Positions 21,720 through 34,934 of a DNA stretch of 64,000 bases are shown one piece after another. Under the pieces are notes generated by a model. The model searched no databases and was not told the origin of the DNA. It saw only the letters and a list, made by a program, of their open reading frames with translations. The DNA is taken from NCBI GenBank assembly GCA_016788425.1, contig JAEURQ010000003.1, positions 279,282 through 343,281 of the forward strand. Direction: 5' to 3'. The DNA comes from Chthonomonas sp. (GTDB lineage: Bacteria > Armatimonadota > Fimbriimonadia > Fimbriimonadales > Fimbriimonadaceae). The position numbers and the translations under genes are program-made. The first letter of the stretch is position 1; every line of letters begins with the position of its first letter.

Positions 21720-22235
21720 ATGACTCAATGGTGGATCCTCGTGGGCATGATGGGGTCCGGAAAATCGATGGTGGGCAGGAAGCTCTCCGAGATATCCGGG
21801 CGGCCCTTGCAGGACACCGACCAGCTTCTCCAAAACCGCTTTGGCCGCACCATCGGCAAGATTTTTGACATCTACGGAGAGGCCGCCTTCCGCGACCACG
21901 AAACGAGCGTGTTGAAAACCCTGGACCCGGAGGCCGGGATTTTGGCCACCGGCGGCGGCGTGATTGTCCGCCCCCAAAACCGCGTCGAGCTCGCGCGCCT
22001 CGGCAAAACCATCTATCTGCAAGTGCCGCCCGACAAGCTCATCGAGCGCCTCAGCCTTAGCCGACGCCGTCGCCCCCTGCTGGAAACGGAAAACTGGGAA
22101 GACCGCTTCCGCGACCTTTACGAATCGCGGCGCGAGATCTACGAAGGCGCGGACCTCACCTTTCCTGTTTCCGCTGAGGACCTGGAAGACACCGCCGCCG
22201 CCCTGCATGTGCGGCTGATGGAGCTCGGATGGTAG
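21720..22235 (+). CDS. aroK: Shikimate kinase
   Basis: This enzyme phosphorylates shikimate with ATP in the chorismate pathway. Walker A is GMMGSGKS at residues ~9-16. Other family features are the shikimate-binding Asp in LQDTDQLL, the GGG motif (ATGGGVIV) and a lid with SRRRRPLLE. The 171 aa are the normal length. The ATG immediately follows the upstream terminator, so there is no room for a ribosome site; leaderless or read-through expression must be considered. It overlaps aroB by 7 nt. The order pilQ-aroK-aroB is also known from proteobacteria. Confidence 0.96.
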   Translation: MTQWWILVGMMGSGKSMVGRKLSEISGRPLQDTDQLLQNRFGRTIGKIFDIYGEAAFRDHETSVLKTLDPEAGILATGGGVIVRPQNRVELARLGKTIYLQVPPDKLIERLSLSRRRRPLLETENWEDRFRDLYESRREIYEGADLTFPVSAEDLEDTAAALHVRLMELGW

Positions 22236-23227
22236 TCCAACATTCGCGCGGCTCGTATCCGGTCCATTTTGGCGAGGGCATGCCGGAACTCCCCGCCGGC
22301 GCGCCCCTCATCACCGATTCCAATCTCGCCGCGCTCTATCCGGAGCTCATCGCGAACCATCCCCACATGATAGTGCCCGCCGGCGAGGCGAGCAAAAGCC
22401 TGCTCTCGGTGGGTCCCATCGTCAGTTGGCTAGCCAGCCAAAACGTCCGCCGCGACCAGCCCATCGTCGCTCTCGGCGGAGGGGTCATTGGCGATCTCGC
22501 CGGGTTTGTCGCCAGCATCTACATGCGCGGCATCCCGTTCATCCAGGTCCCCACAAGCTTGCTCGCGATGGTGGATTCGTCGGTCGGCGGCAAGGTGGGC
22601 GTGGACCTGCCCGAGGGCAAGAATCTCGTGGGCGCGTTTTGGCCACCCGCGGCGGTGCACATTCACCCCGTCTTTTTACATTCGTTGCCCGATTTTGAAC
22701 TCACCAACGGCCTTGCCGAGGTCGCCAAGATGGGCGCGATCCTCGACCCGGCGCTGCTCGAAAGCCTTCAACCCGACGGCGCAACCCTGGCGCAGATTCA
22801 GCGCAGCGTTGACCTCAAACGGCAGTGCGTGGAGGCGGATGAGTTTGAGCGGAGCGGCATCCGGGCGACCCTCAACTTCGGCCACACCATCGGCCACGCT
22901 CTGGAGCAAGTGACCGATTACGAGATTCCTCACGGCCGCGCGGTGGCCATCGGCATGATCGCCGAGACCCAGCTGGGCGAGCAACTGGGCCACACTCCAG
23001 CCGGCACCGCCGACTGGCTGCGCGCTCACTTGGAGCGCCTAGGCTTGCCGACAAGCATCCCGGCCGCCGCCCGCCAACCGCAAGCATTGATCCAAGCGAT
23101 GCGGCGAGATAAGAAAGTCTCCGGCGAGAACTTAGCTTTTGCGCTCCTGACAGCACGCGGGGCGTGTAAACTCTTCGCGGACATCCCAGTGCGGGCGGTG
23201 GAGGAGCTATTCAACAACATAAGCTAA
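22229..23227 (+). CDS. aroB: 3-dehydroquinate synthase
   Basis: AroB converts DAHP to 3-dehydroquinate using NAD+ and a divalent metal. Visible motifs are the NAD-binding ALGGGVIGDLAGF, the phosphate-binding PTSLLAMVDSSVGGK and the metal-binding NFGHTIGHALE. It is 332 aa, near family length, perhaps slightly short at the N-terminus. It starts inside aroK (7-nt overlap), so the two are co-translated. Near its end lies GGAGGAG, which may serve as the ribosome site for the small ORF that follows. Confidence 0.96.
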   Translation: MVVQHSRGSYPVHFGEGMPELPAGAPLITDSNLAALYPELIANHPHMIVPAGEASKSLLSVGPIVSWLASQNVRRDQPIVALGGGVIGDLAGFVASIYMRGIPFIQVPTSLLAMVDSSVGGKVGVDLPEGKNLVGAFWPPAAVHIHPVFLHSLPDFELTNGLAEVAKMGAILDPALLESLQPDGATLAQIQRSVDLKRQCVEADEFERSGIRATLNFGHTIGHALEQVTDYEIPHGRAVAIGMIAETQLGEQLGHTPAGTADWLRAHLERLGLPTSIPAAARQPQALIQAMRRDKKVSGENLAFALLTARGACKLFADIPVRAVEELFNNIS

Positions 23228-23235
23228 AAACGGCG

Positions 23236-23415
23236 TTGGTTTTGGTCATCGGCCTCTTCGTCACCAGCGGTTATGTCATGAGCCAGTTGGCCGTGTGGCG
23301 CGGCGAAGCCACCGACTATGCGCGCCGCATCGATCAGCCTCCCGTGGCGTTGTTAGCCACCGTTCTGCTTGGCCTCGTGCTCGTGGTCGGATTGCTACCG
23401 GAGGACCGCTCATGA
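23236..23415 (+). CDS. Small hypothetical membrane protein (about 59 aa)
   Basis: An open frame between aroB and the kinase-like gene encodes two hydrophobic segments (LVLVIGLFVTSGY and VALLATVLLGLVLVVGLL) joined by a short charged loop. Its TGA overlaps the next ATG (ATGA), the usual sign of a coupled upstream gene. The start is uncertain: TTG 23236, TTG 23242 or ATG 23278 (45 aa, one helix). A GGAGGAG lies about 26 nt before the first TTG. No family was recognised. The position just before a membrane kinase-like protein suggests a partner in the same membrane complex. Confidence 0.5.
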   Translation: MVLVIGLFVTSGYVMSQLAVWRGEATDYARRIDQPPVALLATVLLGLVLVVGLLPEDRS

Positions 23416-25283
23416 TCGGCACCGTGCTCAGCATGCGCTACGAGCTGATGAAGGAGACCGAGCGATCGCCGCTGTTCCGTGTTTTCAAGGCCCGCGATCG
23501 GGTTGTGGGTCGCGACGTGGTCGTCCGCGTGCTCGACGAGCCGTTCGCCAGCGAGGAGCCGTTCCTCACCGCGCTTTCCGAAGTCGTGCAGCGCAGCATC
23601 TCGCTGCCTCACCCCAATATCGAGCGCATGTTGGAATTGCAACGGGAAGACGGCGTTTCGTATCTGGTGTCCGAATTCAGCCCGGGCGTCCCTCTCGCCG
23701 AGCGAATCGGCTTGCTCGCGCCGTTCAGCCCGGGCGTGGCCCTCGGCATGATCAGCGACATCTGTTTGGGACTAATGATGTTGCACGAGAGCGGCGTGAC
23801 GCACGGCGACCTGAGTAGCCGCAACATCATGGTGGGGCCGGACAATCGCGTGCGCATTACGCTGGCCGGCATGTGGACGAGCTTTAGTCATAGTCGCACG
23901 GCGGGCGCGGTCGTCTTGCCCATGATGGCGCCCTACCTTGCGCCCGATATCACGCGCGGCGAAATGCCGAGCCCAAGCACCGACATGTACGCCGTCGGCG
24001 TGCTGCTGTTTGAACTTCTGACGGGCAAAATGCCCTATCCCGGCGACAACGCGATGGCGATTGCCGTGAAGCAGTCGGCCGAGCCGATTCCTTCGGCGGT
24101 GGCCACCAATTCCAGCGTGCCGATGGTGCTCGACAAGATGCTGCAAAAGGTGTTAGCGAAGAGCAAGGGCGAGCGCTATCCCGATATCCGGTCGCTGCTC
24201 GCCGACATTCGCATTGTTCAAGATGGGCTGCGGTTTGGCCGTCAACTCGCCTGGCCGCTTGTGCCCGATCCGCAAGACACGGCGGCGCAAGCCGAGCCCG
24301 ACGAGCGCGTAGTGGTGCCCGCCAGCATCGCCAGCCGCATTGCCGACATTCCTAAGACGGTCGCGATTTCAACAAGTCCGAAAGTAGACGCGGGTGCCGC
24401 GAGTCGGCCGCAACCCAAGCCCGAGGACGCCGGCCTGATCGCGCCGCGCATGGGCGCCGTGCGCGACAAGATGAAGCCCGAGGAAACGCCAATCGAGATC
24501 AGCGACTCCATTCCGAAGGGGCTGCGCATGCTGCTCATCCTCATCACGCTGATGTTGCTGGTGCTCGCGGGTAGTTACGTTTTTTGGAACCTGACCAAAC
24601 CCAAGGAAATCCGGATGCCCAAGGTGACGTTCATCAGCGCCTCCGAAGCCGACAAGAAGCTAAAGATGATGGGTCTGAAAATGCGCGTCATCAAGCGGCA
24701 GATTGATCAAAAGTATTCGGAAAATACGGTGCTCGAAACCAACCCCAGCGCCAACCAAGCCATTAAGCAGGGCAGCACGGTAAACGTGATTATCTCTGCA
24801 GGCACGGGCTTTGTCGAAGTGCCCGACTTGGTCGGTCGCAGCGTAGAAGAGGCGAAGCAGACCCTCACAACACTCGGTTTGCAGCTTCGCGAACCGGTCA
24901 AACGCGCTTACGATGACAAGGTCCGTGAGGGCAACATCATCGAGCAACGTCCGCGCGCGAAGGTGCAGATCGAGCGCAATGCCGGGAAGGTCGCGGTGAC
25001 GGTGAGTCGCGGCAAGTTCCGCGATGCCGCCGAAGGGGAAGGCGGCGGCAAAACGCAAAAATACACGATTCGCCTGACCATGCCCGAGGGTCAGCCGGAA
25101 ACCGAAGTGCAGATCACGGTCGTGGATGCTGACGGCGAGCGGTCGGTGTTTAGCGAGCGCCTCAGTGGCCAAAGCGCCACGCGTAGTATCGAAGTGGAAG
25201 CCGCGGGCGACGAACCCGAGTACCGCGTTTACTACGACGGCCAACTGGTGGACCAAAAGCCGCTCAAGGAGTCGCGCCGGTGA
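23412..25283 (+). CDS. PASTA-domain membrane protein with a degenerate Ser/Thr kinase domain
   Basis: ATG 23412 has GGAGG 7 nt upstream. Residues ~8-275 align with PknB-type kinases, but key residues are changed. The glycine loop is absent (KETERSPLFRVFKARD), the VAVK lysine is arginine (VVVRVL), and DFG reads LAG (VRITLAGMW). The catalytic-loop Asp (HGDLSSRN) and the YLAPD motif remain. A helix at ~370-392 spans the membrane. Two PASTA repeats follow, the second beginning VEVPDLVGRSVEEAKQTL, and then an extra beta domain. PASTA domains bind cell-wall or muropeptide ligands in other kinases. This is best called a pseudokinase; residual activity cannot be excluded. Confidence 0.85.
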   Translation: MIGTVLSMRYELMKETERSPLFRVFKARDRVVGRDVVVRVLDEPFASEEPFLTALSEVVQRSISLPHPNIERMLELQREDGVSYLVSEFSPGVPLAERIGLLAPFSPGVALGMISDICLGLMMLHESGVTHGDLSSRNIMVGPDNRVRITLAGMWTSFSHSRTAGAVVLPMMAPYLAPDITRGEMPSPSTDMYAVGVLLFELLTGKMPYPGDNAMAIAVKQSAEPIPSAVATNSSVPMVLDKMLQKVLAKSKGERYPDIRSLLADIRIVQDGLRFGRQLAWPLVPDPQDTAAQAEPDERVVVPASIASRIADIPKTVAISTSPKVDAGAASRPQPKPEDAGLIAPRMGAVRDKMKPEETPIEISDSIPKGLRMLLILITLMLLVLAGSYVFWNLTKPKEIRMPKVTFISASEADKKLKMMGLKMRVIKRQIDQKYSENTVLETNPSANQAIKQGSTVNVIISAGTGFVEVPDLVGRSVEEAKQTLTTLGLQLREPVKRAYDDKVREGNIIEQRPRAKVQIERNAGKVAVTVSRGKFRDAAEGEGGGKTQKYTIRLTMPEGQPETEVQITVVDADGERSVFSERLSGQSATRSIEVEAAGDEPEYRVYYDGQLVDQKPLKESRR

Positions 25284-25915
25284 AGATCGCGCCGAGCATC
25301 CTCAGCTTTCCGCTGGCCGAAGTGGCCGGCCCGGTTCGCGACATGGTCGCCGCCGGGGTGGACTTGATCCACTTTGATGTGATGGACGGGCAGTTTGTGC
25401 CGCCGATCACATTCGGCGATGCGCTCGTGCAGAGCCTTCGTCCGGTCGGCGAAATCCTGTTCGAAGCCCACTTGATGACCCTCACGCCCGAAGCGCATTT
25501 CGAGGCGTTTGCCCGCGCCGGATGCCAGCGCATTATTTTCCATGCGGAGGCCACGATGCACAGCCATCGCTTGGTGCAGAGCCTCAAGGGCATGGGCATT
25601 GAGGCCGGAGTGGCGATCAATCCCGGTACGCCGGTGCAGGTTTTGGAGCCCGTGCTCGACATGCTCGACATCGCGCTTGTGATGACGGTCAACCCCGGCT
25701 GGGGCGGCCAGGCGTTTCTTGGCGACTGCCTGCAAAAGGTGGCGTGGATCAAGGCTCGACGACCCGACCTGCTGGTGGAGAGTGATGGCGGCGTCAACGA
25801 CAAGACTTGGCCCATTGCTCAGGCGGCGGGCGTGGATATCGCGGTGGTGGGAAGCTATCTGACCGGGCCTGAAGGCATTTCCGCGCTAGTGCGGAGGCTC
25901 CGCGCATGTGGCTAA
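25280..25915 (+). CDS. rpe: Ribulose-phosphate 3-epimerase
   Basis: Rpe interconverts ribulose-5-phosphate and xylulose-5-phosphate in the pentose phosphate pathway. The family motifs are HFDVMDGQFVPPITFG, the metal-binding HAE (IIFHAEAT), VMTVNPGWGGQ and the phosphate-binding VESDGGVN. The 211 aa length is normal. The GTG start overlaps the previous stop (GTGA). The gene ends inside the following small membrane gene by 10 nt, consistent with a tightly packed operon. Confidence 0.96.
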   Translation: MKIAPSILSFPLAEVAGPVRDMVAAGVDLIHFDVMDGQFVPPITFGDALVQSLRPVGEILFEAHLMTLTPEAHFEAFARAGCQRIIFHAEATMHSHRLVQSLKGMGIEAGVAINPGTPVQVLEPVLDMLDIALVMTVNPGWGGQAFLGDCLQKVAWIKARRPDLLVESDGGVNDKTWPIAQAAGVDIAVVGSYLTGPEGISALVRRLRACG

Positions 25916-26199
25916 AGGTCGCCTGCACCACGTTTTTGGTGGCCGGAGTCGCGATGCTGCTGTCGTGGGTGAAATTCGTAGGACCGCGTCCGCCGAGCGA
26001 CGCCCCGAAGAAGGTTCTCGCTCAGTATGGCGTGCATCTGCTGACCTACTTTGGCATCACTTGCCTGCTGTTTTTGCTGGCCGCCATTTTTGCGGTGCTC
26101 ATCATTCGGCACACACGACGCCAATATGTGGAAGAAATGCGCGGAAACTACGACGAATTGATTGAGGGCACGCTCCACGATCATGCCCGAAAGGAGTAG
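25906..26199 (+). CDS. Small two-helix membrane protein, function unknown
   Basis: 97 aa with hydrophobic helices at ~3-21 and ~46-68, separated by a short loop with PRPPSDAPKK, and a charged cytoplasmic tail (RRQYVEEMRGNYDELIEG). GGAGG lies 9 nt before the ATG, within the rpe 3' end. No family was recognised. It sits between rpe and ribD with overlaps on both sides, so it is co-expressed with housekeeping enzymes; that does not reveal its role. Confidence 0.7.
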   Translation: MWLKVACTTFLVAGVAMLLSWVKFVGPRPPSDAPKKVLAQYGVHLLTYFGITCLLFLLAAIFAVLIIRHTRRQYVEEMRGNYDELIEGTLHDHARKE

Positions 26200-28046: not shown

Positions 28047-28670
28047 ATGGGTTTTGAGATTTCGATGAATACGGTGCAGCTCTCGGCGGTGCACGAGATT
28101 TGCAACATTGGCCTGGGTCACGCGCTCACTGCGCTCTCGACCATGACAGGGCGCAGCTTCAACATGGAGATCCCGAAGGTGGATGCGGTGCCCGCGGCGA
28201 CGATTTCGCAGATGCTGGGCGGTCCGGACGAAATCGTGGTCTCAGTGCTGATGCCGTTCGAGGGCGATGTGGATGGTCAGATGGCGTTCCTCTTCCCGTG
28301 GGAAAGCGCGCAACAACTTTGGGCCATGCTGCTCGGCGCGGCTCCGGCCGACTACGCCGCGGTGGACGACATGCACATGTCCGCCACTCGCGAGGTCGGC
28401 AACATCATCAATTCCAGTTTTCTCAACGCGCTGGCCGACATGACCGGGCTGCGCATGCACGCCACGCCGCCGTCGTTTGCGCTCGACATGGCGATCTCGG
28501 TGGCCGGCAGCATTGTGGTGGAAGCCGAGGCCCGCGAGGCCGTGGCACTTGCAGTTGAAACGGCGATTTTCGATTCCGAGCATACGACCAAGGGCTACTT
28601 TGTCCTGATTCCGACCGTCGCGACGCTGCGCACCATGTTCGAGCGGTTGGGGATCGCTGAGGCGGCCTAG
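28047..28670 (+). CDS. cheC: CheC-family CheY-P phosphatase
   Basis: CheC dephosphorylates CheY-P and binds CheD. Two copies of the active-site motif E-x-x-N are visible: HEICNIGLGHALTAL near residue 18 and REVGNIINSSFLNAL near residue 115. The 207 aa length matches CheC. GAGGG lies 7 nt upstream of the ATG. It is the first gene of a seven-gene chemotaxis operon, with cheD starting one base after its stop. A C-terminal hydrophobic patch (YFVLIPTVATLRTM) fits the CheC fold. Confidence 0.92.
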   Translation: MGFEISMNTVQLSAVHEICNIGLGHALTALSTMTGRSFNMEIPKVDAVPAATISQMLGGPDEIVVSVLMPFEGDVDGQMAFLFPWESAQQLWAMLLGAAPADYAAVDDMHMSATREVGNIINSSFLNALADMTGLRMHATPPSFALDMAISVAGSIVVEAEAREAVALAVETAIFDSEHTTKGYFVLIPTVATLRTMFERLGIAEAA

Positions 28671-28671
28671 C

Positions 28672-29178
28672 ATGACCAAGTCCGAGCTGCTGGTCGGCAT
28701 GGCCGACATCCATTTTTGCAAGGGTCCGGCCAAGTACACCTGCCTCGGACTCGGGTCGTGCATCGGACTGGCCCTGGTGGACAACCGGACCCAGATCAGC
28801 GGGATGATTCATATCATGCTGCCAGCTACATTCCCCGATCGTCCGGTGGACAAGATAGGCAAGTTTGCTGATGTTGGCATTCCCGAGCTCATTCGCGTGA
28901 TGTCGCTGCACGGCGCCGAGCCGCGGCGCATGGTCGCCGCGTACTGCGGCGGCGCGGCGGTTTTCAAAACCGACGGCGTCGGTTCGCACTTGGATATCGG
29001 CGCGCGCAACGCCGATGCCGTCAAGAAGTTTTTGAATGAGAATCGCATCCCGGTATGCGGCGTCGATGTCGGCGGCTCGTCGGGCCGCACCATGATCTAT
29101 CACTCAGATTCGGGCGAAATCACCGTCCGAACCGTTCTCGGGGGAGAAAGAACACTTTGCAATCTCAAGGCAGGTTAA
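28672..29178 (+). CDS. cheD: Chemoreceptor glutamine deamidase CheD
   Basis: CheD deamidates glutamines on chemoreceptors and forms a complex with CheC. The catalytic Cys is in TCLGLGSCIGLALVD, and the His in GMIHIMLP, matching the Cys-His-Thr triad of the family. The 168 aa length is typical. cheC and cheD adjacent is the common arrangement in bacteria with this adaptation system. The presence of CheD implies receptors elsewhere in the genome, since none is encoded here. Confidence 0.94.
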   Translation: MTKSELLVGMADIHFCKGPAKYTCLGLGSCIGLALVDNRTQISGMIHIMLPATFPDRPVDKIGKFADVGIPELIRVMSLHGAEPRRMVAAYCGGAAVFKTDGVGSHLDIGARNADAVKKFLNENRIPVCGVDVGGSSGRTMIYHSDSGEITVRTVLGGERTLCNLKAG

Positions 29179-29184
29179 ATCGAA

Positions 29185-30033
29185 ATGACTCTCCAAGAAC
29201 TGCTCTGTCAGGCAGCTGATCTCCCCTCGTTCCCGCAACTCGCGTTGCGAGTGGCGCGCGAAACCGAGCACTCGGACGCTTGCGCGGCTTCGATCGCCGA
29301 CCTCATGGCCGAGGATCAAGGTCTCTCAACCCGTGTTTTGCGCCTGGCGAATAGCTCATTTTTCGGTGTGCCGCGCCGCATTGATAGCTTGCGCGAGGCG
29401 ATCATAATTCTGGGGCTGGTGAACGTCCGCCGCTTGGCGCTAGCCGCCAGCACGTACAGCTGGTTCCTCTCCACGGGTCGCGGGTCGCGGCTGCCGATGG
29501 CGCTGTGGTCGCAGAGCGTGGGGGTCGCGACGGTGGCCGCGTCGTTAGAAACGCAGTCGCCCAAGGTCAGCGAAACCGACCTGTTTACGGCGGGAATCTT
29601 GGCGGATATCGGTCTCTCGGCGATGGGTGCGGTCGCGCCGGAACCCGTGGATCGCGTGTTCCAACTCTGCCGCGACGAGCTGATGGCCTTGGCCAGGGCC
29701 GAGCAAGAGGTTTTCGGATTCTCGCACGAGCAAGTTGGCGCGGAACTCGCCACGGAGTGGGGTTTCCCCGACGGCGTGATCACGTGCATTCGCTACCACC
29801 ACTGGCCGCATCGCGCGCCGGATGGCGAAGTCGCGCCGTACTTCCTGAACCTTGCCGCCGGCCTCATGTCCGAGACGAATCAGGGCCTGGTCGCGCTGGG
29901 TCATCAGGACGTGATCTTGCCCGAGGTTCTCGTCGCGTTGGGTCTGGAAACTGAGCACCTAGAAGCGGCCCGAGCGGGCCTGCAACGGGCGTTGAGCATG
30001 CCGCAAGGCATTCTGGGAGGACTGGCCGCCTAG
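29185..30033 (+). CDS. HDOD-domain signalling protein
   Basis: Residues ~1-200 match an HDOD domain: LPSFPQLALRVARETEHSD, LMAEDQGLSTRVLRLANS, and IILGLVNVRRLALA. HDOD proteins are HD-fold relatives without the full metal site and act as regulatory scaffolds in motility, cell-cycle and cyclic-nucleotide signalling. At 282 aa it has no second catalytic domain. It sits between cheD and cheB in the same operon, so a role in regulating taxis or surface motility is likely. That role is inferred from context. Confidence 0.85.
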   Translation: MTLQELLCQAADLPSFPQLALRVARETEHSDACAASIADLMAEDQGLSTRVLRLANSSFFGVPRRIDSLREAIIILGLVNVRRLALAASTYSWFLSTGRGSRLPMALWSQSVGVATVAASLETQSPKVSETDLFTAGILADIGLSAMGAVAPEPVDRVFQLCRDELMALARAEQEVFGFSHEQVGAELATEWGFPDGVITCIRYHHWPHRAPDGEVAPYFLNLAAGLMSETNQGLVALGHQDVILPEVLVALGLETEHLEAARAGLQRALSMPQGILGGLAA

Positions 30034-30069
30034 GTGCAGACACCTGCCCGGACTGCCGATAACAACACT

Positions 30070-31116
30070 ATGCGTAAACAGCGAATTCTCATCGTGGATG
30101 ACTCCCCGTTGATCCGACGAATTCTTTCCGATTGGATTCAGGCCGAGTTTGACCTTGAACTCGTCGGCGCGGCGGAGAACGGTCACGAGGCGATTCGTCT
30201 GGCCGAGGAACTCAAGCCCGACCTGATTACGCTTGACGTGGAAATGCCCGAGTGCGACGGCATTACGGCGCTCCGCGCGATTATGGCGGCCAGGCCGACG
30301 GCGGTTTTGATGATTAGTTCGGTGACCACCAAGGGCGCGAAGTCGACTTTGGCGGCCATGGAAGCCGGCGCCTATGACTTTGTGACCAAGCCCGGCGGAG
30401 CAAGCAGTGTGAAGTTTGGCTGCACCAAGGAAGAAGTTCTGAACAAGATTCGGGCGGGGCGATACGTCCGCGTCGGCTCTCCGACAACCTTAAAGGTAAC
30501 CGAAAAGCCCGCGGCGGTCAGCATTCCCTCGCGTAGCGACAAGGTCGTGGTCATCGCGTCCTCCACCGGTGGTCCGCAAGCGTTGGTGCGCCTTTGGCCG
30601 AACATTCCCGCCAACTTCCCAGCGCCGATCCTGATCGTGCAGCACATGCCGGCGGGATTCACGGATTCGTTTGCAAAGCGACTCACGAAGCTCGGCACGG
30701 TGCCTTGCGTCGAAGCCAAAGCGGGAATGACGCCGGAGCCGGGCGTCGCGATTCTTGCGCCTGGCGGCTATCACATGACGCTTGACGCGGACGGAAAAAT
30801 CGCGCTCGACGCGCGTCCCACGATTCATGGTGTGCGGCCAGCGGCGGACTTTTTGTTTGAAACCGCGGCGGCTCGCTTCGGTTCGCGGCTCATTGGCTTG
30901 GTGCTGACCGGCATGGGCAAGGATGGCGCGGCAGGCGCGTTGCAGATCAAAAATTCCGGCGGGGTTGTGCTCGGCGAATCAGCGGATTCGTGTCTGGTTT
31001 ACGGCATGCCGCGGGCGGCGATGGAACTCGGCGCGGTCTCGGCTGAGGCCAGCATCGACGACCTCATGTCGCACGTCGCGGGTTGCCTGACCAAACGAGG
31101 GCAGAATGCAGCCTAA
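30070..31116 (+). CDS. cheB: Chemotaxis protein-glutamate methylesterase CheB
   Basis: CheB demethylates chemoreceptors when phosphorylated. The N-terminal receiver has the acidic pair ILIVDDSPL, the phospho-Asp in ITLDVEMPECDG and the conserved Lys in DFVTKPGG. The C-terminal esterase has the catalytic Ser in IASSTGGPQAL, His in VQHMPAGFTDSFA and Asp in TGMGKDGAAG. ATG 30070 is placed at the receiver start. A GTG at 30034, with GGGAGG 13 nt upstream, would add 12 residues and is a fair alternative. It overlaps cheR by 11 nt. Confidence 0.95.
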   Translation: MRKQRILIVDDSPLIRRILSDWIQAEFDLELVGAAENGHEAIRLAEELKPDLITLDVEMPECDGITALRAIMAARPTAVLMISSVTTKGAKSTLAAMEAGAYDFVTKPGGASSVKFGCTKEEVLNKIRAGRYVRVGSPTTLKVTEKPAAVSIPSRSDKVVVIASSTGGPQALVRLWPNIPANFPAPILIVQHMPAGFTDSFAKRLTKLGTVPCVEAKAGMTPEPGVAILAPGGYHMTLDADGKIALDARPTIHGVRPAADFLFETAAARFGSRLIGLVLTGMGKDGAAGALQIKNSGGVVLGESADSCLVYGMPRAAMELGAVSAEASIDDLMSHVAGCLTKRGQNAA

Positions 31117-31918
31117 GGCCGCCGAGTGGGAACTGTTTTATAGCCGGGTCCTTAAGCGGACCGGGCTCGATCTAAACGACTACAAGTCGGAGCAGTTGCA
31201 GCGCCGATTGGTCAACCTCTTTCGCACGTGCAAGGTAGCGAATCTCGACGAACTGTGGACGTACGCTCAGGCGCAGCCCAATGGAACGTCGTGGCTCTTT
31301 GACCAGATCGCCATCAATGTCACGGAGCTATTTCGGAATCCCGAAAAGTGGGCCGAACTTGAGCAGAAAGTGATCCCGCAACTGCTGGCCAAGTCGCCGA
31401 CGCTCAAGTGTTGGAGCGCGGGTTGTAGCATCGGAGCCGAGGCGCATACCCTCGCGTGTTTGTTCGCCGAAAAGTTTCCCGGACGGCACTCGATTTTGGG
31501 CACCGACATCGACATGAGCGCCCTGGCCGAGGCGAAGCGGGGGGTGTTTTCCGCCGCAGATGCCAAGGCAACTCCAAGCGCGTACCTCAAGAAGTACTTT
31601 ACGCCGCAGGACAAGTCGTACCAAGCAAACCCGGCGCTCACCAAGTACCTCCAGTTTAAGCATGGCAATCTGTTGGCCGATCGCTTTGACACAGGGTACG
31701 ACCTTATTCTCTGTCGCAATGTGGTGATTTATTTCACCGACGAGGCGAAGGACCAACTGTATCAGAAGTTCTGGAGCGCGCTCAAACCGGGCGGGATTCT
31801 TTGGATCGGCGGTACAGAACGAATCCACAATCACCGATACTTGGGATTCGAGAGTCCGCATCCGTTCTTTTATCAGAAAACAAACAACGTGGAACAAACA
31901 TGGCGAAACGCATCCTAA
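31106..31918 (+). CDS. cheR: Chemoreceptor glutamate methyltransferase CheR
   Basis: CheR methylates receptor glutamates with S-adenosylmethionine. The helical N-terminal domain includes YKSEQLQRRLVNLF. The Rossmann domain has the cofactor motif CWSAGCSIGAEAHTLA, near the canonical SAGCSTGEE but with AEA instead of EEP. DLILCRNVVIYF is the family signature. The 270 aa length is normal. The ATG lies inside the end of cheB, and the 3' end overlaps cheY by 19 nt. CheB and CheR together give methylation-based adaptation alongside CheC and CheD. Confidence 0.94.
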   Translation: MQPKAAEWELFYSRVLKRTGLDLNDYKSEQLQRRLVNLFRTCKVANLDELWTYAQAQPNGTSWLFDQIAINVTELFRNPEKWAELEQKVIPQLLAKSPTLKCWSAGCSIGAEAHTLACLFAEKFPGRHSILGTDIDMSALAEAKRGVFSAADAKATPSAYLKKYFTPQDKSYQANPALTKYLQFKHGNLLADRFDTGYDLILCRNVVIYFTDEAKDQLYQKFWSALKPGGILWIGGTERIHNHRYLGFESPHPFFYQKTNNVEQTWRNAS

Positions 31919-32262
31919 TCACCGACGACGCTCTCTTTATGAGAGTCACGCTGAAGAACATCCTTACCGGCGCAGGCTACGAAGTAGTGGGCGAGGCCGC
32001 CAATGGCGTCGAGTCGGTGGAACTGTTTAAGAAACTCAAGCCCGACCTCGTGACGATGGACATTACGATGCCCGAACTCGATGGCATCGGCGCTCTCAAG
32101 GCGATTAAGGGAATCGATCCCGATGCGCGAGTGGTGATGTGCACCGCGATGGGCCAAAAGAACATGGTCGTCGAAGCCATTCAGGCCGGCGCGAAGGACT
32201 TTATCATCAAGCCGTTCCAGCCCGATCGCGTCCTCGAATCCATCTCCAAGCACGCCGCCTAG
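31900..32262 (+). CDS. cheY: Single-domain response regulator CheY
   Basis: 120 aa, a stand-alone receiver domain. The acidic pair is in ILITDDALFMR, the phospho-accepting Asp in LVTMDITMPELDG, the Thr switch in VMCTAMGQ, and the conserved Lys in DFIIKPFQ. The start is at ATG 31900 inside the cheR 3' end; the longer frame upstream is cheR sequence in another frame. Without flagellar genes in view, the output could be a flagellar or pilus motor. CheC and CheX in the same operon are its likely phosphatases. Confidence 0.93.
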   Translation: MAKRILITDDALFMRVTLKNILTGAGYEVVGEAANGVESVELFKKLKPDLVTMDITMPELDGIGALKAIKGIDPDARVVMCTAMGQKNMVVEAIQAGAKDFIIKPFQPDRVLESISKHAA

Positions 32263-32275
32263 GAAGCAAAATCCG

Positions 32276-32758
32276 GTGAAAGTCGAATACATTAATCCGT
32301 TTGTCCAGGGGTCGCTGAACGTGATTCAGACCCTTACCGGAATCACGCCCGAACGTGGTCACCTGACCGCGCGTCCGCAGATGTTTACCACGCAACAAGT
32401 GAACATCGTGATCGGCGTTACGGGCCAAGTGGAGGGTCAAGTGATTTATGGCATGTCGGTGCAAACGGCCGACCGCATTGCCGGCATCATGCTCGGGCAA
32501 TCGGTGGTGACTTTCGACCAGCTCGCGGCGAGCGCCATCGCCGAACTCGGCAACATGATTAGTGGCAATTCGCTGGGCATTCTCAGCCAGGCCGGATTTG
32601 TTTGCGATATCACTCCGCCGACGATTATTCGCGGCAGCAGCGTGCGGATTAGCACGCTCGACATCCCCGCACTCGTGATTCCCCTGAAGCTGGAAGATGT
32701 CGGCGTGTTCGAGATTAACGTGAGTTTGCAAGAGCGTCGCCGCGCCATGGCGGCGTAG
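32276..32758 (+). CDS. cheX: CheX-family phosphatase
   Basis: 160 aa with the beginning MKVEYINPFVQGSLNVIQTL and a single active-site motif, AELGNMISGNSLGIL, as in CheX, which has one motif where CheC has two. CheX removes phosphate from CheY. The GTG start is preceded by AGGAAG. It is the last gene of the chemotaxis operon; its stop is 2 bp from the stop of the convergent toxin gene. Two different CheC-family phosphatases in one operon suggest tight control of CheY-P. Confidence 0.88.
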   Translation: MKVEYINPFVQGSLNVIQTLTGITPERGHLTARPQMFTTQQVNIVIGVTGQVEGQVIYGMSVQTADRIAGIMLGQSVVTFDQLAASAIAELGNMISGNSLGILSQAGFVCDITPPTIIRGSSVRISTLDIPALVIPLKLEDVGVFEINVSLQERRRAMAA

Positions 32759-33662: not shown

Positions 33663-34529
33663 ATGCGAATGGACCTTGTCGGCTTGCAAGCCACTGATTT
33701 TTACGCCGAGACGGATCAGCGGGCGCTCGATGCGCTCAAGCGAATCCCCCTGTTACCCACGCTCACCAAGAAGTTTTTCGAGCACGGGATTGACCGCTGG
33801 ATGTACGTGCAAAACATGGCGATGTGCGTGCGTTGCGGGCCGCGACAATACGCCACCGTGTACGGAATCATGCGCGATTGCGCGCGGCGGCTCGACATGC
33901 AAGAGCCCGAGCTTTATCTCACGGGGAATCCATTTCCCAACGCGTTTGCCGGCGGCGTGGAGCGACCCTACATCACTCTGCGGTCGAGCATTCTCGACAC
34001 CCTTAACGACGAGCAACTGGTGCACATCATTGGTCACGAGTTGGGCCACATCAAGGCCGGCCACATTCTCTACATGTCCATGGCGCGCGTGCTCGCCCCG
34101 CTTATGCAGCTTTTGGGCCGCGCGACCCTAGGACTTGGCGACGTCGGCACGCTGGCCCTCGTCATGGCGCTGGCCGAGTGGTCGCGCCAGGCCGAACTCA
34201 CTGCCGATCGCGCCGGACTACTGGCGTGCCAAGACTTGCCGACATCCATGAGCGCCAACTTGGCGTTGGCGGCCGGACCCAGTCGGTTTGCGCACGAGGC
34301 CCACCTCGAAACGTTTGTGGATCAGGCGCGGGCTTACCAAGAAATGTCGCAGACGGACATGGTTGGGAAGGCGATTTGGTTTATGCGATACGGCTACGCG
34401 GCGAGTCACCCGATGCCGGTCTATCGCACACAAGCCCTCGAGCGTTGGGTGCTCGCGGGCTCGTACGATCAGATTTTGCGGACTTACGGTTCGGCGACGA
34501 CTTCGACTTCGTCGGCCACCGGAGCCTGA
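33663..34529 (+). CDS. M48-family zinc metalloprotease
   Basis: 288 aa. The zinc motif HExxH is in HIIGHELGHIKAGH (residues ~121-134). The third ligand Glu is in SRQAELTADRAGLLA, matching the M48 (HtpX/Ste24) pattern ExxxD. Family members degrade damaged membrane or periplasmic proteins. Only one weak hydrophobic stretch (around 145-170) is seen, so membrane anchoring is uncertain. The 3' end overlaps the convergent FHA gene by 46 bp. Confidence 0.9.
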   Translation: MRMDLVGLQATDFYAETDQRALDALKRIPLLPTLTKKFFEHGIDRWMYVQNMAMCVRCGPRQYATVYGIMRDCARRLDMQEPELYLTGNPFPNAFAGGVERPYITLRSSILDTLNDEQLVHIIGHELGHIKAGHILYMSMARVLAPLMQLLGRATLGLGDVGTLALVMALAEWSRQAELTADRAGLLACQDLPTSMSANLALAAGPSRFAHEAHLETFVDQARAYQEMSQTDMVGKAIWFMRYGYAASHPMPVYRTQALERWVLAGSYDQILRTYGSATTSTSSATGA

Positions 34530-34921
34530 TCCTCGACGGGTGCGTCGGGCGCGGCGCCCACGCGGAACGCAAACCGGGCGTTGCCGAGCGCAATCTCATC
34601 GCCGTCTTTGATCTCGGCGGTCTCGACCTTCTCAAAGTCGTCGCGACGGACATAGGTGCCGTTCGACGACTCCAGGTCGGTGATGCTCCAATTGCCGTTT
34701 TCAAAGTCAATCTTGGCGTGGCGTCGGGAGACGTACGCGCCCTCGGGCGTGCCGCCAAGGTCCACGTCAATGGGGCCGACACTCGGATCGAAGCGGCCAA
34801 TGGTGGCGGGCGGGGCAAAGAGGAACGACTCGGTCGTTTCGATGCCGCCTCGAATCACGATTAGGCGTGCAAGCGGGATGGCGTCTTCGGCCATCGGGGT
34901 CACCACATCTTCTGGTTCCAT
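34484..34921 (-). CDS. FHA-domain protein
   Basis: 145 aa carrying one forkhead-associated domain, which binds phosphothreonine. The conserved elements are TIGRFDPS, SRRHAKIDF and SSNGTYVRR. The N-terminal ~25 residues are acidic and could be a phospho-target. ATG 34921 is chosen because TAGCAT lies exactly 7 nt before it; ATG 34930 would overlap that element. Phosphopeptide partners would come from Ser/Thr kinases elsewhere, as the kinase-like gene at 23412 looks inactive. Confidence 0.88.
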   Translation of the reverse strand: MEPEDVVTPMAEDAIPLARLIVIRGGIETTESFLFAPPATIGRFDPSVGPIDVDLGGTPEGAYVSRRHAKIDFENGNWSITDLESSNGTYVRRDDFEKVETAEIKDGDEIALGNARFAFRVGAAPDAPVEDQAPVADEVEVVAEP

Positions 34922-34928
34922 GAGATTC

Positions 34929-34934
34929 ATGCTA
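34929..34934 (-). promoter_or_regulatory. -10 element (TAGCAT) of a leaderless FHA transcript
   Basis: TAGCAT with a 7-nt gap to ATG 34921 and no Shine-Dalgarno. It fits the TANNNT pattern found at eleven other starts in the window. Confidence 0.5.

Follow-up and report, generated by a model that had tools for sequence, protein, structure and literature searches.

We report that a gene of the PASTA-kinase type, lying in a 64,000-nucleotide stretch of DNA (the window, here always the whole stretch analysed), encodes a pseudokinase from which the ATP-binding lysine, the alpha-C glutamate and the metal-binding aspartate are gone, while the kinase fold, the membrane helix, the PASTA repeats and the locus have been kept and the dead domain remains under selection. 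The interpretation that we favour, at a probability of roughly 0.6, is that an ancestral PASTA kinase has become a non-catalytic, peptidoglycan-sensing docking platform whose output is made by binding. A binding role at the cell wall is preferred because the dead domain is conserved, the PASTA part is present, the gene is coupled to that of a membrane protein and the protein persists in two relatives of the genus g29. The first-pass annotation of the sequence had proposed that a degenerate PASTA kinase could be a sensor or scaffold; class-wide loss of catalytic residues, purifying selection, the lack of an active PASTA paralogue and the persistence in those two relatives all support the proposal, and it is from these that we infer sensing or scaffolding.

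The open reading frame starts at an ATG at 23412 and stops at a TGA at 25281-25283, exactly as had been annotated. Pfam finds Pkinase (E 1.7e-25, 90.3 bits) and PASTA (E 1.4e-25, in two stretches) in the 623-aa product, and the Pkinase score, together with a match to StkP at E 9.1e-44, identifies a Hanks-type kinase domain. The NCBIfam model of PASTA kinases, NF033483, covers aa 2-535 with E 1e-85 and 288.9 bits, which does not reach its curated cut-off of 450.

Individual residues were assigned by alignment with StkP. The glycine loop is absent, E17 and S19 occupying the glycine positions; R39 replaces the VAIK lysine, V58 the alpha-C glutamate and L151-A152-G153 the DFG motif. HRD has become HGD (H131-G132-D133) with its aspartate intact, S135 stands for the lysine of HRDxK, the asparagine is retained as N138, and APE reads A177-P178-D179, with aspartate for glutamate. 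Two of the three residues of which at least one is absent in a bacterial Ser/Thr pseudokinase (the lysine, the HRD aspartate and the DFG aspartate) are therefore missing, and R39 and L151 stand where an active PASTA kinase has its VAIK lysine and DFG aspartate. The earlier description of a site without glycine loop, lysine or DFG aspartate that keeps HGD and a YLAPD motif thus holds throughout, and the alignment with StkP, of the kind that it had recommended for PknB structures, confirms the degenerate site. It had also named displaced but present Lys and Asp residues as what would overturn it; among the 36 aligned rows of the window's own family, no N-lobe column holds lysine in at least half of the rows, nor does any column from 140 to 172 hold aspartate in at least half. 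Canonical phosphotransfer by the protein is unlikely, and very probably it is absent.

Table 1. Features of the pseudokinase locus in the window (f1, the family of the window genome; f5, a second family of the order).
Feature	Position	Strand	Basis
aroB-like gene upstream, conserved neighbour in relatives	22229..23227	+	ORF, matches in relatives
SMP1, small two-helix membrane protein, start uncertain, overlaps kinase start	23236..23415	+	hydropathy
PASTA pseudokinase gene, 623 aa	23412..25283	+	ORF, Pfam, StkP alignment, NCBIfam
Pseudokinase domain, aa 1-276	23412..24239	+	Pfam Pkinase 24-256; structure model
R39 replacing VAIK lysine	23526..23528	+	StkP alignment
H131-G132-D133, HRD to HGD, catalytic Asp kept	23802..23810	+	StkP alignment
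L151-A152-G153 replacing DFG	23862..23870	+	StkP alignment
W155, invariant in 36/36 f1 and 7/7 f5 rows	23874..23876	+	alignment
Transmembrane helix, aa 371-391	24522..24584	+	hydropathy
PASTA repeat 1	24612..24797	+	Pfam PASTA
PASTA repeat 2	24813..25007	+	Pfam PASTA
C-terminal beta-sandwich-like domain	25008..25280	+	single-sequence model
rpe, ribulose-phosphate 3-epimerase, overlaps kinase stop	25280..25915	+	Pfam
SMP2, second small membrane protein after rpe	25906..26199	+	ORF, matches in relatives

The closest solved relatives by sequence are StkP, Staphylococcus aureus Stk1/PknB and Mycobacterium tuberculosis PknB, and a model of aa 1-281 built from three sequences (pLDDT 72.7, pTM 0.76) has S. 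aureus Stk1/PknB as its best match in the PDB (TM 0.77; Stk1/PknB structures about 0.75-0.8). The membrane helix and the two PASTA repeats noticed at first pass are both borne out, the former as one hydrophobic helix and the latter as two Pfam stretches, giving a single-pass protein whose repeats are presumably extracellular. In its kinase domain, single helix, PASTA repeats and best sequence and fold matches the protein resembles StkP, PrkC and PknB; it is unlike them in lacking the lysine, the alpha-C glutamate and the DFG aspartate. The model of the PASTA part, made from one sequence, is poor (mean pLDDT 49.9), and from it the C-terminal domain alone was used, lightly: pLDDT is about 70-80 over most of this domain, which reaches Z-scores of up to 9.8 against Ig-like domains and found no match in a sequence search of the PDB. 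PrkC carries an Ig-like domain; no link between the two was established.

PASTA matches occur in 97 of the 101 genomes of the class, which among the genomes searched consists of one order; of these 97, 94 have exactly two, G009 and G023 have three each and G093 has four. Four genomes have no such match (G035, G049, G087 and G095), and two of them, G049 and G087, reach a completeness of at least 95%; these absences count against the universality of a PASTA docking platform. The window protein has matches in 60 of 61 genomes, its own included, the match in G049 being a TPR paralogue and that in G052 fragments only; these two genomes and G035, which has no match, were dropped, leaving an order alignment of 57 orthologues and the window (58 rows). 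A related-locus search with the window protein as single query returned distant kinases only. G093 holds two full-length copies of the pseudokinase (on C17 and C43), a duplication or an assembly effect, and the orthologue of G031 (L056) has an open frame of 1219 aa with a long insertion between the kinase domain and the PASTA part.

Within the order the catalytic residues have been lost in family-specific combinations. At the lysine position, the window's family (f1, 36 rows) has arginine in 32 rows, lysine in three and glycine in one, and it keeps the HRD aspartate D133 in 34, N138 in 26 and the DFG aspartate in none. Family f2 keeps the lysine and the HRD aspartate in 13/13 rows and the DFG aspartate in none; f5 has arginine for the lysine and keeps both aspartates in 7/7; the single row of f3 has lost the HRD aspartate, and that of f4 has all three residues, but with HAD for the motif and no alpha-C glutamate. 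At least one of the three is missing in 57 of the 58 rows and the alpha-C glutamate in all 58. Dozens of species show these changes again, so the losses are more than chance.

For comparison with other classes, 60 of 131 genomes of the same phylum were fetched, picked by match strength and family spread and not at random. Of 60 kinases outside the order, 45 lie beside aroB or rpe and 15 elsewhere; a model made from the PASTA repeats of the order itself detects two repeats in each of the 60. All three catalytic residues are present in 29 of the 45 locus kinases (not in the other 16) and in 15/15 of the non-locus kinases; the HRD arginine is glycine in 45/45 of the former and is kept in nine of the latter. 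A quick tree of 120 rows (261 kinase-domain columns with the catalytic columns excluded; SH-aLRT support only, many open forks) places the order's 58 rows on one side of a branch (90), nested in a group of 107 rows (99, starred) that contains all the locus kinases, with support of 96 for f1, 97 for f5, 98 for f2 and 99 for f1 and f5 together. The least numbers of changes on this tree, eight for the lysine, five for the HRD aspartate and seven for the DFG aspartate, are lower bounds in which losses and regains are not distinguished. We read the pattern as that of one inherited locus kinase which seems to have acquired HGD early and then to have lost its catalytic residues several times in differing orders; as positional orthologues keep all three residues in 29/45 cases, catalysis would have decayed repeatedly in one inherited locus.

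The residues that remain raise the question of an unconventional active kinase or a nucleotide switch, in which R39 and D133 would support ATP binding or slow transfer without a DFG aspartate. Retention in f1 of D133 (34/36) and N138 (26/36) is odd for an idle site, and that D133 and R39 (32/36) are so strongly retained speaks against a bare scaffold and would also fit nucleotide binding; f5, moreover, keeps R39, D133 and DFG in 7/7 rows and f2 its K-D pair in 13/13, and a similar proposal, made from an AlphaFold3 prediction, exists for DYD kinases with a beta-3 arginine in the parts covered of a 2025 review (PMC12599244). We nevertheless hold this to be improbable, for there is no conserved substitute acid near DFG, no substitute lysine and no alpha-C glutamate, and D133 itself is lost in both g29 species and is glutamate in G021.

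Purifying selection still acts on the kinase domain. In five close pairs from the order its dN/dS (NG86) is 0.035, 0.144, 0.059, 0.088 and 0.085, values that are rough at a dS of 0.55-1.36; in the pair G004/G033, dS is oddly different between the domains (1.36 and 0.22). The figures for rpe and aroB do not serve as a yardstick, having come from stop-to-stop frames of which some are far too long (511 codons for rpe in G008/G036). Relative to the window protein the kinase domain is also more similar than the ectodomain, in 35/35 f1 rows (medians 42.4% and 29.5%) and in 6/6 f5 and 13/13 f2 comparable rows. Two places after the DFG glycine lies W155, which is found in 0/13 f2 rows and, outside the order, in 2/45 locus and 2/15 non-locus kinases; a constraint has thus newly arisen in those branches of the tree that lost the lysine. 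A chance frame or a pseudogene was considered and rejected, as the frames are open in 58 order members (that of G048 being cut by a contig end) and dN/dS is low. A decaying relic without function could account for the repeated loss of catalytic residues; with the same open frames and dN/dS, a conserved locus and survival in reduced genomes against it, we give it hardly any credence.

The gene order around the pseudokinase is aroK - aroB - SMP1 - kinase - rpe - SMP2 - ribD, in which rpe and the kinase were identified by Pfam search and the names aroK, aroB and ribD are those that we presume for the neighbours (aroB from family resemblance). The coupling to a tiny membrane protein and to rpe that had been noted earlier is evident as overlaps of a few bases at both ends of the gene, the TGA of SMP1 (23413-23415) overlapping the kinase ATG and the GTG of rpe (25280) the kinase TGA. 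In most relatives, genes matching those of the window adjoin the kinase; the arrangement aroB-kinase-rpe-ribD is also found in other classes of the phylum. We counted as SMP1-like any ORF within 60 bases that has at least one hydrophobic segment, so that single cases may be chance. Such an ORF lies at most 10 bases from the kinase start in 34 of the 35 f1 loci besides the window, 33 of them with an identical +3 overlap; G029 is the f1 locus without one. Elsewhere in the order it is near the kinase start in 7/7 f5, 1/1 f3, 1/1 f4 and 2/13 f2 loci and, outside the order, in 31/45 locus kinases and 2/15 non-locus kinases, both of the latter more than 10 bases away. SMP1 has no match in Pfam or NCBIfam. 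SMP2, between rpe and ribD, is present in f1 and f5 loci and has sub-threshold Pfam matches only.

In Bacillus subtilis, prpC, prkC, cpgA and rpe form one operon, according to the parts covered of PMC8631317, and the presence of rpe in the same gene group there as here means that the link between rpe and the kinase is probably old; unlike that locus, the window has aroB- and ribD-like neighbours in place of prpC and cpgA.

Both PASTA matches of the window genome sit in the 23412-25283 frame, and a PASTA search for a second, active PASTA kinase in that genome found none; thus no active PASTA kinase stands behind the pseudokinase. The search for an active paralogue that had been suggested earlier does return kinases of active type, but none with PASTA repeats. 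The genome has two further Pkinase proteins: a TPR kinase (L001:556-2268, - strand) with its VALK lysine, alpha-C glutamate, HRD and DFG intact, and a zinc-ribbon-type kinase (L002) with glycine loop, HRD, DFG and Cys-rich stretches. The TPR kinase has a glycine-poor loop, with ARSNDI in the glycine-loop position, and its G049 orthologue has a nearly identical one, so that loss of the loop alone need not mean inactivity.

The pseudokinase might accordingly serve as a regulatory partner or decoy of the TPR kinase, passing on a signal from the wall either by dimerising with that kinase or by serving as its substrate for FHA proteins. The intact TPR kinase, whose sequence as a query scores above 300 bits in 56/61 genomes, the window's included (G029, G034, G035, G052 and G057 are those without), is in keeping with this, as are the one PP2C_2 and six FHA matches of the window genome and the precedent of the mycobacterial MviN pseudokinase, which is a substrate of PknB and is bound by FhaA (PMC12599244, parts covered). 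Against it stand the two g29 genomes (G029 and G073; 1.5 Mb, 97% complete), in each of which the PASTA pseudokinase is the one Pkinase match and no FHA match was found; a SpoIIE-type search of both was likewise empty, with a model that detects the PP2C of the window genome weakly. In 1.12 Mb of G029 loci, phmmer with that PP2C, one FHA protein and L002 gave nothing at E<=1, and with the TPR kinase it gave the pseudokinase only. We therefore think a TPR-kinase partner unlikely. In the g29 proteins arginine replaces the lysine, HRD reads HGH or HGC and DFG reads HPG or HAY, and G029 retains a PBP1A-family protein and MurE-like and MurD-like genes. A dead PASTA protein therefore stays in genomes that appear to have lost all other Ser/Thr kinase signalling and of which one, G029, still has peptidoglycan synthesis.

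A docking platform of the kind that we favour could work as follows. The two PASTA repeats, perhaps with the C-terminal domain, would bind peptidoglycan or a precursor at the growing wall, and this binding would place or cluster the protein; the cytoplasmic pseudokinase domain would then offer a docking face to cell-wall or division proteins, of which the co-translated two-helix SMP1 is the likely first partner, and the output would pass through binding, with no phosphorylation. To our knowledge, neither MviN/MurJ (ActPs3) nor EssB/YukC has a PASTA ectodomain. Both are membrane pseudokinases that act by binding, and in ActPs3 all three motifs are degraded, unlike the window protein with its HGD aspartate (PMC12599244). 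The same review, in the parts covered, describes DYD pseudokinases as membrane-bound, with arginine for the beta-3 lysine and no alpha-C glutamate, features matched by R39, V58 and the membrane helix, though the window protein has LAG and no DYD motif replacing DFG. In DLHK pseudokinases the ATP- and metal-binding motifs are degraded and the HRD aspartate is retained, much as D133 is here, but they have no membrane helix such as that at aa 371-391 and frequently occur joined to helicase domains (PMC12599244). A precedent for docking by inactive PASTA-kinase domains comes from the cytoplasmic domain of inactive StkP-K42R, which binds GpsB with a KD of 500 nM (PMC3983041, part covered).

Seven bacterial pseudokinase families are treated in the review, and in its covered parts no PASTA-bearing family is described among them (PMC12599244). 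Our literature search found no paper on Armatimonad pseudokinases or Armatimonad PASTA-domain kinases and, in the parts covered of the literature searched, no description of a PASTA pseudokinase family. PASTA kinases have been studied as enzymes and drug targets. We raise, as a tentative extension that we rate below the docking platform itself, that signalling through a dead PASTA receptor is class-wide, with wall sensing uncoupled from phosphorylation and output by assembly alone, and that it can persist as the only kinase-fold protein. If so, this non-catalytic function would be the older one, and active PASTA kinases elsewhere would still have it beneath their enzymatic function. In a lineage that has kept the receptor, lost catalysis several times and still conserves the dead domain, receptor and enzyme have come apart naturally; the role of the PASTA receptor without phosphorylation becomes testable, and a co-translated membrane partner is pointed to.

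Some further genes bear mention. The sole PP2C_2 match of the window genome (L168:3473-4462, - strand) is located some 9 kb away from L002, the zinc-ribbon-type kinase. Within the window, a 148-aa FHA-domain protein (34487-34930, - strand; Pfam FHA E 2.3e-15) is encoded about 9 kb from the pseudokinase, and at 28047-32755 there is a run of genes that, by eye, we take to resemble chemotaxis genes.
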